Shown: in pieces, positions 5,782-10,382 of the stretch | How positions within the stretch are numbered: the first letter of the stretch is position 1 | Layout of the letters: each line of letters starts with the position of its first letter | Assembly (NCBI GenBank): GCA_031284905.1 | Contig: JAITXI010000162.1 | Location: 1 to 49,129 of the forward strand | From: Bacteroidales bacterium | GTDB lineage: Bacteria; Bacteroidota; Bacteroidia; Bacteroidales; ML635J-15 | Direction of reading: 5' to 3' | DNA length: 49,129 nt | The notes under the pieces: generated by a model | Database searches by the model: none | What the model was told of the DNA's origin: nothing | What the model saw: only the letters and a program-made list of their open reading frames with translations | Translations under genes and position numbers: made by a program

Positions 5782-5859
5782 TGGAAAATTTCAACAAATA
5801 ACTATAAAAAATGCTAATAAGTTACGAAATTTTGTAATATTAAAGGTCTGCTTCCAATA

Positions 5860-6150
5860 CTGTTTTCAAGGTCAATCATGGCAATCGTTCCGAAAACAGA
5901 ACGTTTGCACATCCATCGCATTCCTTGCCCCGAACCCGTTCTTCTTTGAATTGTTGTTTTTGCAATTGTGCTTTTTCCGATTCTACAAAGCTGTCTGTTT
6001 CGGTGATTTCCCCAATAATTTTTCGGTTATCTTGACCGACCATTTTTTCTCGGGCTTCCATTTGCTGGTAACTTCATACAAATAATAGTTTCTATTGATG
6101 CAACGCTGTTCTGTGCCTTCGCGTTTTTGGTATAACAGCAAATCCGGCTG
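5860..6150 (-). pseudogene. Decayed transposase fragment (IS4/IS1634-like N-terminal region)
   Basis: Minus-strand frames pieced across frameshifts: LLLYQKREGTEQRCINRNYYLYEVTSKWKPEKKWSVKITEKLLGK / ITETDSFVESEKAQLQKQQFKEERVRGKE; locally higher GC; no intact ORF. Confidence 0.5.
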
Positions 6151-6295
6151 TGTTGATTTTTTCGGTTACACATTTTTTTATTTTTTTAACAATATTACGT
6201 AAATACATGATTATTAAATTACAAAAAAAAATTATAACTCCAAATAGATTAACGACTCTTTTTTACTATTACGTATTAGTGGAAAATGTTAGGGT

Positions 6296-7495
6296 TTAAA
6301 TTTTATCAGCAAAATTCCGACCAAAATTTACCAATTCTTCAATTTGGTTAGTATCAGGTTTGAATTTCATTTTTATCAACGGAATTTCAGTTTTTAGTTT
6401 TAATAAATTTAGATTTGCCGTAATAATTTCTGCTGCTTCTCCACTCCAACCAAACGAACCGAAAGCAACGGCAAGTTTTCCTTTATCGCGAATAGGATTT
6501 ATAATTGCAAAAAGTTTATAAACTTGAAGTAAAGCGTTTTGATTAATTGTCGGGCAACCAACTAATAAAGCATCTGCTAAAACAATTTTCTGTTCAATTT
6601 CGCCTAAATCCATTTTCTCAATATCTAAAACTTCAACGTTGATATTAGCTTTTTTGATTCCTATTGCAATATTTTCAGCCATTATTTTTGTATATCCGTA
6701 AGCCGAAACGTAAAGTATTAATGCTGTTTTTGAATTATGTTCGGTTGTTGCCAAATATTCTTTAGATAATTTTTTTGATAAGTCAATAATTTTCTTTGAA
6801 TAAGAGCGAAGAATAGGACCGTGTCCAGGAGCTATCATCTTGATTTCTAAATTTTCAATTTTTTCAATTGCTTTAACAAAAAATTTACTAAAAGGTTTCA
6901 GAATGCAATCAAAATAATATTTAAAAGCATCGTAATAATCGCCTGCTAAATCGTCAAACATTTCATCTTTACAGAAATGAGCGCCAAAAGAATCACAAGT
7001 AAAGAGAATTTTATCTTCCACTAAATATGAGTAAATTGAATCAGGCCAATGTAAATTTGGAGCAGAAATAAATTTTATTGTTGCATCGCCTAAATCTAAT
7101 TCATCTCCTTCTTTTACAATTTGATATTTAAATTTTGTTTCATGTAAATCTTGTAAGTATCTGATAGCCTGACCACTACCCAAAATAATTGCATTCGGAC
7201 AAATTTCTAAAAGTTTACTTAAACTTCCGGAATGGTCTGGTTCTGTATGGTTTAAAATTATGTAAGAAACTTCAGCCGGATTACAAACTTTTTTTACTTT
7301 CTCAAGGTAAATATCTGAAAATTTTGCCTTAGCAGTTTCAACAATTACTTTTTTCTGTGCATTGATAAAATATGAATTATATGTTGTTCCATATTTTGTT
7401 TCCATCACAACATCGAAAGTTGTTATATCATAGTCATAAATTCCAATCCAAGATACTCTTTCGTTAAGTTTTAGAATTTTATTTATATCTTTCAT
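6296..7495 (-). CDS. FprA-type flavodiiron protein (A-type flavoprotein; O2/NO reductase family)
   Basis: Metallo-beta-lactamase HTEPDHSGS diiron motif, PGHGPILR, C-terminal flavodoxin domain (ALILYVSAYGYTKIMAENIA). Confidence 0.9.
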   Translation of the reverse strand: MKDINKILKLNERVSWIGIYDYDITTFDVVMETKYGTTYNSYFINAQKKVIVETAKAKFSDIYLEKVKKVCNPAEVSYIILNHTEPDHSGSLSKLLEICPNAIILGSGQAIRYLQDLHETKFKYQIVKEGDELDLGDATIKFISAPNLHWPDSIYSYLVEDKILFTCDSFGAHFCKDEMFDDLAGDYYDAFKYYFDCILKPFSKFFVKAIEKIENLEIKMIAPGHGPILRSYSKKIIDLSKKLSKEYLATTEHNSKTALILYVSAYGYTKIMAENIAIGIKKANINVEVLDIEKMDLGEIEQKIVLADALLVGCPTINQNALLQVYKLFAIINPIRDKGKLAVAFGSFGWSGEAAEIITANLNLLKLKTEIPLIKMKFKPDTNQIEELVNFGRNFADKI

Positions 7496-7529
7496 ATCTT
7501 TAATTTAATAAATATTATTTTTTAATTTG

Positions 7530-7537
7530 CAAATTTA
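7530..7537 (-). promoter_or_regulatory. Bacteroidetes -7 promoter element (TAAATTTG) upstream of flavodiiron gene
   Basis: Plus-strand CAAATTTA, reverse complement matches TAnnTTTG. Confidence 0.5.
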
Positions 7538-7553
7538 CTGTAATTTTATAATA

Positions 7554-7585
7554 ATTACAAATTTATTTATTGATAAATTTGTAAT
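7554..7585. promoter_or_regulatory. 13-bp perfect inverted repeat containing an FNR-like half site (TTGATAAAT)
   Basis: ATTACAAATTTAT-TTATTG-ATAAATTTGTAAT upstream of the flavodiiron gene. Confidence 0.5.
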
Positions 7586-7720
7586 TATTTTAGATAAAAA
7601 TTATAAAAACATAAGTTTATAAAACGCTGATTATTGCGAGGAAACAGTTTGATGCTGTGTTTTTTATATTTAATATTTTTGCTTGTTTTCATAAAATACC
7701 TGTCTCCCTTAAAAATCTTT

Positions 7721-8836
7721 TTATCCAATATTACTAAAGAGTTTCAGAGTTTCCGGTTTCAAAATTTCAATAGCCTTATTATTGATAGCAATAATATTAT
7801 CTTTTTTCAATTCGGCGAGTATTCTAACTAAATTTTCTGTTGCCAAACCCGAAAATTCTGCAATTTCTTTTCTTGAAATTATTGTGTCGATAAAATTACT
7901 CTCAAAAACTTTTTCAGACAAATATAATAAAGTATCACAAACTCTTCCTAATGCCTGTTTGTTTGAAATTGCTCCAAGTTTATTATAAACATTTTGTAAA
8001 GAATTTGAATATAATTTCATTATTTCCATAGCAAATTTCGGATTCGATTTTATAATTTTATCAAAATTAGATCTTTCAATTATATAAACTTTCGAAGTAA
8101 CCATTGCCACACAACTAAAATGATAATAATTATCTCCATACAAACTCGAAAGTCCGATTATACTATAAGGTTTTGTAATTTTAAAAATATGATTTTTATG
8201 AGAATTTTCAACAAGAGCTTTTAATAAACCTTCCTTTAAAATCATTATGAAAGAAGCAAAAGTTCCTTGTTTGCAAATAATTTCATCTTTTTTTAAATCA
8301 ATAGGAACTTTAATTATTTTTTCAATATCTTTATCCGTTAAAAATAAATCTTTTAGATAATTAGTAAAATTTGTTTCTTGAAAATTTTCATTATTTTTAC
8401 CTTCCGATTTTTTTGAAAATAATTCTTTAAGTTTTCTGTAAGATATATATTGGTTAATTTTTTCAACAATAGTTTGAAACAAACGATTTTCTTCATCAAG
8501 GAAAATACGTTTTTCAGTTCTTACAGGCTTTACGTAACATAAAGAAATTTCACCGACAACAGAATCGTTAATAATTAAATCGGCAGAAACATTTAATTCC
8601 GATTTTTTATAATTTTCCGATTCAACTTCCAGATTGAAAATTGAAATTTTTATTTTACAAATATCCGGATAACGCCAACCAATAGGAATGACTTTAATCA
8701 ATTGTGATAAAACAGAAAATAAATCAGAATTAAAATCTTTAAGAACAAAATCTACATTATATAGACACTCTAATTCTTTTTCCTTTTTATCCAAAAGGTT
8801 TACAACGTTATCAAAATTTTCATTGTTATTGAACAT
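7721..8836 (-). CDS. Crp/Fnr family transcriptional regulator with an additional N-terminal domain
   Basis: cNMP-binding-like region (LKKDEIICKQGTFASFIMILKEGLLKAL) and C-terminal Crp HTH (TIISRKEIAEFSGLATENLVRILAELKKDNII); ~150-aa N-terminal extension with GWRYPDICKIKI. Start moved to the ATG at 8836 (MFNNNENF). Confidence 0.85.
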   Translation of the reverse strand: MFNNNENFDNVVNLLDKKEKELECLYNVDFVLKDFNSDLFSVLSQLIKVIPIGWRYPDICKIKISIFNLEVESENYKKSELNVSADLIINDSVVGEISLCYVKPVRTEKRIFLDEENRLFQTIVEKINQYISYRKLKELFSKKSEGKNNENFQETNFTNYLKDLFLTDKDIEKIIKVPIDLKKDEIICKQGTFASFIMILKEGLLKALVENSHKNHIFKITKPYSIIGLSSLYGDNYYHFSCVAMVTSKVYIIERSNFDKIIKSNPKFAMEIMKLYSNSLQNVYNKLGAISNKQALGRVCDTLLYLSEKVFESNFIDTIISRKEIAEFSGLATENLVRILAELKKDNIIAINNKAIEILKPETLKLFSNIG

Positions 8837-8853
8837 AAAAAACAATTTCAAAG

Positions 8854-8861
8854 CAAAATTA
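8854..8861 (-). promoter_or_regulatory. Bacteroidetes -7 promoter element (TAATTTTG) of the Crp/Fnr regulator
   Basis: Plus-strand CAAAATTA just upstream of the 8836 ATG. Confidence 0.45.
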
Positions 8862-8890
8862 CATCAAAAAAATGAAAATTAAAAATTTTG

Positions 8891-8908
8891 AATTGATAAA
8901 TATCAATT
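8891..8908. promoter_or_regulatory. FNR-type palindrome AATTGAT-AAAT-ATCAATT
   Basis: Exact match to the Crp/Fnr-superfamily FNR consensus TTGAT-N4-ATCAA, in the divergent intergenic region. Confidence 0.6.
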
Positions 8909-8961
8909 GAAATTATTAAAAAGAAGATATTGAAAATTATATTATATACAAAAATAAGTGT

Positions 8962-8969
8962 TAAATTTG
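8962..8969 (+). promoter_or_regulatory. Bacteroidetes -7 promoter element (TAAATTTG) upstream of gdhA
   Basis: TAnnTTTG match 17 nt upstream of the start codon. Confidence 0.5.
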
Positions 8970-8985
8970 CATAAAATTTTACAAA

Positions 8986-10323
8986 ATGAACGTAGAAAAA
9001 ATTTTAACACATTTAGAAAAAAAACACCCTGGAGAAGTTGAATACTTACAGGCTGTAAGAGAAGTTTTAGAAACAATCGAAGAAGTTTACAACGAAAATC
9101 CTAAGTACGAAGAGTACAAAATTATTGAAAGATTAGTTGAACCGGACAGAATTTTAACATTCAAAGTTCCATGGATTGACGATCAAGGAAATACACAATT
9201 AAATCTAGGTTACAGAGTTGAGTTCAACAATGCAATCGGACCATACAAAGGAGGTTTAAGATTTCACCCAAGTGTAAATTTAAGTATATTAAAATTCTTA
9301 GGTTTTGAACAAATTTTTAAAAATTCTTTGACATCTCTTCCGATGGGTGGTGGTAAAGGAGGTTCGGATTTTGACCCAAAAGGAAAATCAGACAAAGAAG
9401 TTATGCGTTTTTGCCAATCATTCATGACAGAGTTAGTAAGATTAATCGGACCTGACACAGATGTTCCTGCTGGAGATATCGGCGTTGGTGGTCGTGAAAT
9501 AGGTTACTTATTCGGATATTACAAAAAATTAACTCGTCATCATGACGGCGTTTTAACCGGAAAAGGTTTAAATTGGGGCGGAAGTTTAATTCGTCCGGAA
9601 GCAACAGGTTTTGGTGGCGTTTATTTTGTTCACCACATGTTGGAAAATGCAAAAATTGATATTAAATGCAAAAGAGTTGCTATTTCAGGTTTCGGTAACG
9701 TAGCTTGGGGTGCTGCTTTAAAAATGACTGAATTAGGTGCAAAAGTTGTTGCTATTTCAGGTCCTGACGGATATATTTTAGACGAAGCAGGAATCAGTGG
9801 CGAAAAAATCAATTATATGTTGGATTTAAGAGCTTCTAATCAAGATATAGTTGCTCCTTATGCTCAAAAATTTGCCGGTGCAAAATTCTTCGCAGGTAAA
9901 AAACCTTGGGAAGCAAAATGCGAAATAGCACTTCCTTGTGCAACACAAAACGAACTTAACGGCGACGATGCTAAATTATTAGTATCAAATGGTTGTATTT
10001 GTGTAGGTGAAATTTCTAATATGGGTTGTACTCCTGAAGCAATAGAATTTTTACAAAGCAAAAAAATTCTTTATGCTCCGGGTAAAGCTGTAAACGCAGG
10101 TGGTGTTGCTGTTTCAGGTTTGGAAATGACACAAAACTCTGCTCACTTAAATTGGTCTGCTGAAGAAGTTGACAAAAAATTATTCGACATTATGACTAAC
10201 ATTCATGTTGCTTGTATTAAATACGGAACAGGGAAAGATGGTTATGTAAACTATGTCAAAGGTGCAAATATTGCCGGTTTCTTAAAAGTTGCTGATGCAA
10301 TGTTAGACCAAGGAATTATTTAA
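8986..10323 (+). CDS. gdhA: NADP-specific glutamate dehydrogenase
   Basis: GYRVEFNNAIGPYKGGLRFHPSVN, LPMGGGKGGSDFDPKGKSD, DVPAGDIGVGGREIGYLFG. Confidence 0.95.
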   Translation: MNVEKILTHLEKKHPGEVEYLQAVREVLETIEEVYNENPKYEEYKIIERLVEPDRILTFKVPWIDDQGNTQLNLGYRVEFNNAIGPYKGGLRFHPSVNLSILKFLGFEQIFKNSLTSLPMGGGKGGSDFDPKGKSDKEVMRFCQSFMTELVRLIGPDTDVPAGDIGVGGREIGYLFGYYKKLTRHHDGVLTGKGLNWGGSLIRPEATGFGGVYFVHHMLENAKIDIKCKRVAISGFGNVAWGAALKMTELGAKVVAISGPDGYILDEAGISGEKINYMLDLRASNQDIVAPYAQKFAGAKFFAGKKPWEAKCEIALPCATQNELNGDDAKLLVSNGCICVGEISNMGCTPEAIEFLQSKKILYAPGKAVNAGGVAVSGLEMTQNSAHLNWSAEEVDKKLFDIMTNIHVACIKYGTGKDGYVNYVKGANIAGFLKVADAMLDQGII

Positions 10324-10341
10324 TAATAAATCCAAATAATA

Positions 10342-10382
10342 AAAAAAAGACTGTCCAAATAAATTTGGACAGTCTTTTTTTA
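10342..10382. terminator. Bidirectional rho-independent terminator after gdhA
   Basis: Perfect AGACTGTCCAAAT-AA-ATTTGGACAGTCT stem flanked by A and T runs. Confidence 0.85.

Follow-up and report, generated by a model that had tools for sequence, protein, structure and literature searches.

A conserved palindrome between a divergent Crp/Fnr-family regulator and gdhA in Bacteroidales suggests dedicated control of glutamate dehydrogenase

Described relatives of the regulator and organization of the locus

The class I series of E. coli CRP runs through positions -72.5 and -93.5. Class I activation typically has its dyad at a fixed, helically phased position upstream of a promoter that in most cases has no -33 element; it also involves contact of the activator with the C-terminal domain of the RNA polymerase alpha subunit, and expression is lost when the activator is absent. 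The Bacteroidales regulator analyzed here has its fold and helix-turn-helix (HTH) in common with CRP and FNR of E. coli, and the site that accompanies it, TTGAT-N4-ATCAA, is of the FNR type. Unlike these proteins, it has an extra GAF-like N-terminal domain, lacks the cysteines of the FNR cluster, carries Leu229 at the position of CRP Glu72, and appears to have one main target with a Bacteroidota-type -7 box rather than a global regulon. Among solved structures, CrpPg of Porphyromonas gingivalis (PDB 2gau), a Crp from the Bacteroidales reported to be cAMP-independent (PMC12040651), is nearest to the regulator, both by sequence profile (E 3e-28) and by fold. CrpPg (232 aa) is without the GAF-like extension and is 24% identical to the regulator in the fold alignment, and the paper describing it does not mention glutamate or gdh (PMC12040651). 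One-component control of redox or nitrogen genes is shared with HcpR, DNR and NtcA, and the structures of NtcA and DNR were matched by profile, but the target of the present regulator is different and no hcp or nor gene was seen adjoining it. The best folds for its N-terminal domain are the GAF domains of the sigma-54 activators NifA and Nlh1, whereas in this regulator the GAF-like domain is fused to a Crp module instead.

Glutamate dehydrogenase is where ammonia enters the metabolism of Bacteroidota, and knowledge of its control in this phylum is sparse. In the literature searched, the coverage of which is incomplete, we found no report of a Crp/Fnr regulator of gdhA in Bacteroidota, and the regulator that Bacteroidales keep beside gdhA is to that extent previously undescribed. 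We now propose a concrete regulator, operator and promoter geometry, kept over many families including rumen species, which provides a test case for helically phased class I activation at the TAnnTTTG promoters found in Bacteroidota.

The window, by which we mean the whole stretch of 49,129 nucleotides that was analyzed, is a single contig (C125) from a draft genome totalling 2.75 Mb, whose nearest named relatives are uncultured Bacteroidales. A gene for a flavodiiron protein (399 aa; 6296-7495, minus strand) is followed by the gene for the Crp/Fnr-family regulator (371 aa from the ATG at 8836; 7721-8836, minus strand) and, divergently, by gdhA (8986-10323, plus strand). The gdhA product, a glutamate dehydrogenase of 445 aa, matches PF02812/PF00208 and scores 842 bits with NF010633, over the cut-off; gdhA would be the main target of the regulator, and the flavodiiron gene is judged to be a neighbour outside the regulatory unit. 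Directly after gdhA lies a terminator-like hairpin, a perfect 19-nt inverted repeat ending in T-runs (10342-10381).

The regulator protein

The regulator is placed in the Crp/Fnr superfamily by a cNMP-binding-type beta-barrel (PF00027, residues 180-265) followed by a Crp-type HTH (PF13545, residues 297-365), and alignment indicates that its recognition helix retains E334 and R338. The earlier note on this DNA had proposed an FNR-type regulon controlled in response to O2 or NO. Sensing of O2 or NO by an FNR mechanism finds no support in the protein, because both the FNR cysteines and the glutamate through which CRP contacts cAMP are absent. FNR holds its [4Fe-4S] cluster with four cysteines, three close to the N-terminal end of the Crp module and one in the barrel, and the alignment shows no cysteine cluster before the barrel that could correspond to them; the invariant cysteine is C188 (ICKQG), and C24 and C60 lie in the GAF-like domain. 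The cAMP contacts Glu72, Arg82 and Ser83 of CRP are not kept either, with Glu72 aligning with Leu229 and the Arg-Ser pair not conserved. Searches with curated models gave 45.6 bits for FNR (PRK11161, cut-off 228) and 28.2 bits for NtcA (TIGR03697, cut-off 244.95), the dyad also differing from GTA-N8-TAC, the site of the 2-oxoglutarate-binding NtcA, and every match to the NCBIfam models of named Crp/Fnr subfamilies fell far under its cut-off. The regulator is a Crp/Fnr protein by fold, and by the features tested it is not an FNR.

The N-terminal domain (residues about 1-140; 8417-8836, minus strand) has no Pfam or NCBIfam match across its 140 residues. Its predicted fold (pLDDT 88.6) is nearest to the GAF domains of NifA and Nlh1 (E about 1e-3, TM 0.57-0.63, 12-13% identity). 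We describe the domain as GAF-like, an assignment based on structure prediction and moderate TM-scores, since the sequence models remained below threshold. Both Cys24 and Cys60 are invariant within it in the regulator alignment. In the tree a single clade of long forms contains every gdhA-linked regulator, and the short forms from the rumen are nested inside this clade, indicating that the GAF-like domain was lost there. We also noted a 260-aa protein (L153:284-1066) that starts with the same GAF-like domain, has no Crp module at that end and is encoded a few genes away from a GAF-Crp regulator. At a further locus (L157) a GAF-Crp regulator without the dyad is divergent from a class III aminotransferase resembling ornithine aminotransferase, suggesting that the GAF-Crp family stays near glutamate metabolism.

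The dyad and its distance from gdhA

A perfect 18-bp palindrome, AATTGATAAATATCAATT, is present between the divergent regulator and gdhA at 8891-8908, as the earlier note had described, and its core (8893-8906) matches TTGAT-N4-ATCAA exactly. It is the one perfect match to this pattern in the whole window and also the best-scoring site there (22.4 bits, the next reaching 11.8) when the window is scanned with a matrix built from the sites of relatives. Genome-wide there are 18 perfect matches, compared with 5 for the reversed control pattern; 15 of them lie inside coding sequence and 2 between convergent genes, leaving the regulator/gdhA dyad as the sole perfect site in a promoter region. A broad regulon in the source genome was therefore rejected as far as perfect sites are concerned, the remaining 17 lying outside promoter regions. 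The palindrome itself is real and functional-looking.

Further support for the dyad is provided by its conservation. We searched for the regulator in 60 relatives and, as a separate check, in an independent named collection, some of the same organisms being represented in both. Among the 60 relatives almost every full-length orthologue has the palindrome upstream, as does the shorter rumen form, with gdhA as the divergent neighbour. In the named collection the dyad, with at most one mismatch, occurs in 28 of 29 regulator/gdhA divergons across Bacteroidales, the exception being the gdhA-linked locus L159. In 23 genomes where no such regulator is linked to gdhA, 30 regions upstream of gdhA were examined; a perfect dyad was present in none of them and a one-mismatch version in a single one. 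Long-form regulators that do not adjoin gdhA lack the dyad at five loci of the named collection and at all four new ones; L177 is exceptional in having the dyad without gdhA. Across 26 genomes of the genus the 16-mer site is found about once per genome and the reversed pattern not at all. In a later test, two further searches produced 12 new gdhA-linked loci whose regulators are less than 80% identical to any earlier one, and 11 of these divergons carry the dyad (L276 does not). This co-conservation lends weight to the earlier suggestion that the dyad is a Crp/Fnr-type operator tied to this regulator, and it is consistent with recognition of TTGAT-N4-ATCAA by the regulator, which we infer from the genome comparisons to be the protein that binds it. 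Another Crp/Fnr protein of the source genome, C51, could in principle bind the same dyad.

To describe promoter geometry we took the -7 box as a match to the consensus TAnnTTT[G/A] and expressed the distance as the number of bp separating the dyad centre from the box end. In the window this distance is 70 bp to the 3' end of the gdhA box TAAATTTG (8962-8969, plus strand) and 46 bp to the regulator box TAATTTTG (8854-8861, minus strand). A distance of about 46 bp to a TAnnTTTG box, emphasized previously, is correct for the regulator and for the flavodiiron gene, but the distance that is conserved is the 70 bp to the gdhA box. It measures 69-71 bp in 16 of 20 non-redundant loci, while in 2000 shuffles no more than 4 loci ever had this spacing. 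In the rumen clade and in L158 the dyad is 91-92 bp from the gdhA box, two helical turns further upstream. The newly found loci behave similarly: 9 of the 11 dyads fit the 70/91 rule, six at 69-71 bp and three at 91-92 bp, with two located elsewhere (L271, L275). The intervening DNA has reached saturation (mean identity 0.36, compared with 0.33 after shuffling), so that selection, rather than recent common ancestry, keeps the spacing constant. A TTTG at -33 spacing is present in only 3 of 16 gdhA promoters. The dyad is thus located as at class I promoters, upstream of the core promoter at a helically phased 69-71 or 91-92 bp, and by analogy its two positions, two turns apart, resemble the -72.5 and -93.5 of the E. 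coli CRP series.

The mechanism we propose builds on what is directly observed, namely a conserved site that co-occurs with the regulator at a fixed, helically phased spacing. A regulator dimer would bind ATTGATAAATATCAAT in the shared intergenic region, upstream of gdhA and with 70 bp between the dyad centre and the -7 box end, and from there would activate gdhA in a class I-like manner, at a promoter that usually has no -33 element. Binding may also tune the promoter of the regulator itself, where the geometry differs between lineages, and a metabolic ligand would presumably act through the GAF-like domain or the cNMP pocket. We consider it likely that a dedicated regulator of this GAF-like-Crp/Fnr type activates gdhA from a class I-like position and that the flavodiiron gene is incidental; it is the spacing by itself that points to activation of gdhA rather than repression. 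The emphasis of the earlier note, in which gdhA was named as a possible target, is reversed by these data, with gdhA as the conserved target at a fixed promoter distance.

Alternative readings and dyads at other genes

Autoregulation had also been proposed, and it is possible at this locus, but the geometry on the regulator side is not conserved. The dyad lies 22 bp from the regulator's -7 box in the rumen clade, where it overlaps the -33 region, and about 43 bp from it in the genus, beside a good TTTG -33 element, as would be expected if the dyad served mainly the regulator's own promoter and gdhA merely shared the intergenic region. We regard this as quite improbable, since the regulator-side distance varies from 22 to 203 bp across loci while the gdhA side is constant at 70 or 91, and since long-form regulators located away from gdhA have no dyad. 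It is unlikely that the dyad-bound regulator represses gdhA, whether through looping, obstruction of an activator or some similar means. Crp/Fnr proteins can repress, and class I spacing is an indirect sign of activation; however, a dyad phased at 70 or 91 bp upstream of promoters that usually miss the -33 element would correspond, by analogy, to the usual layout of class I activation.

The original proposal, that an FNR-type regulator responds to O2 or NO and acts on its own gene, on the flavodiiron gene and perhaps on gdhA, now appears very improbable. While the dyad does fit the FNR consensus, the flavodiiron gene adjoins the regulator and a half-site in front of it is likewise 46 bp from a -7 box, the adjacency is confined to the source genome, and no flavodiiron gene was found beside the regulator at any of the related loci searched. 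Scanning of the full genome and of related genomes indicated that the dyad is kept at regulator/gdhA divergons but not at flavodiiron orthologues, a perfect dyad being found upstream of none of 20 close orthologues. The site reported on the flavodiiron side, TATTGATAAATTTGTAAT, does exist at 7568-7585 within an inverted repeat, but it is a half-site at chance level: the window contains ATTGATAAAT four times, and in the matrix scan of the window the half-site, with 1.4 bits, ranks 104th. The regulator lacks the FNR cluster cysteines, as described above. Finally, a 209-bp remnant of a repeat lies within 5830-6250, immediately downstream of the flavodiiron gene. It has no intact ORF and is matched at 96% identity on contig C3 and more weakly on C85, suggesting that a rearrangement may have brought the flavodiiron gene to this position. 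With no conserved adjacency or site, we rejected the flavodiiron gene as a target of the regulator. It is probably an incidental neighbour in the source genome, and the case illustrates how poorly a regulon is predicted from the genes that adjoin a regulator in one genome.

The inverted repeat in the gap between the regulator and the flavodiiron gene (7547-7592, minus strand) consists of 20-nt arms at 7547-7566 and 7573-7592 that are 95% complementary and nearly all A/T. It is present once in the genome and would form a strong A/U RNA hairpin (z -5.1) between two genes of the same direction. With one genomic copy and no conservation at orthologues, it was rejected as a second type of site for the regulator, and we judge it to be a hairpin or an unrelated site, belonging to another factor.

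Preferring gdhA as the main target of the regulator in the source genome, we also recorded dyads at other genes of its relatives. In five congeners (L101, L102, L108, L113 and L118) a second dyad, with at most one mismatch, is located upstream of an operon in which a small ferredoxin-like protein is encoded together with a NuoF-like flavoprotein (PF01512), and in 5/5 it is exactly 156 bp from the -7 box of the operon. Between dyad and -7 box the same five genomes share a conserved TTATTTAGAAT element, and TAACA/TGTTA repeats similar to a Rex operator are found there as well. The NuoE/NuoF-like operon is probably of the HydABC (hydrogenase) type. It is present in the source genome without the dyad and was rejected as a target there. 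A tentative possibility, about which we are more doubtful than confident, is that the GAF-Crp lineage responds to a metabolite of nitrogen or redox metabolism (2-oxoglutarate, an amino acid, or the thiol redox state via the conserved Cys24/Cys60) and thereby couples gdhA, and in some relatives the NuoE/NuoF-like operon, to the redox state of fermentation. In that case the circuit would have persisted in the rumen clade despite loss of the GAF-like domain, its operator displaced by exactly two helical turns.

The other extra sites across the genus are mostly inside genes. Four more distant Crp/Fnr regulators (L182, L184, L198 and L200) are divergent from multihaem cytochrome c or cytochrome b561 genes, with the TTGAT-N4-ATCAA dyad at L184, L198 and L200 and a one-mismatch version at L182, and this wider Crp/Fnr clade may share the dyad specificity. 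In two closely related rumen genomes (L105 and L107) a perfect dyad is located about 160 bp upstream of a rho-like gene.
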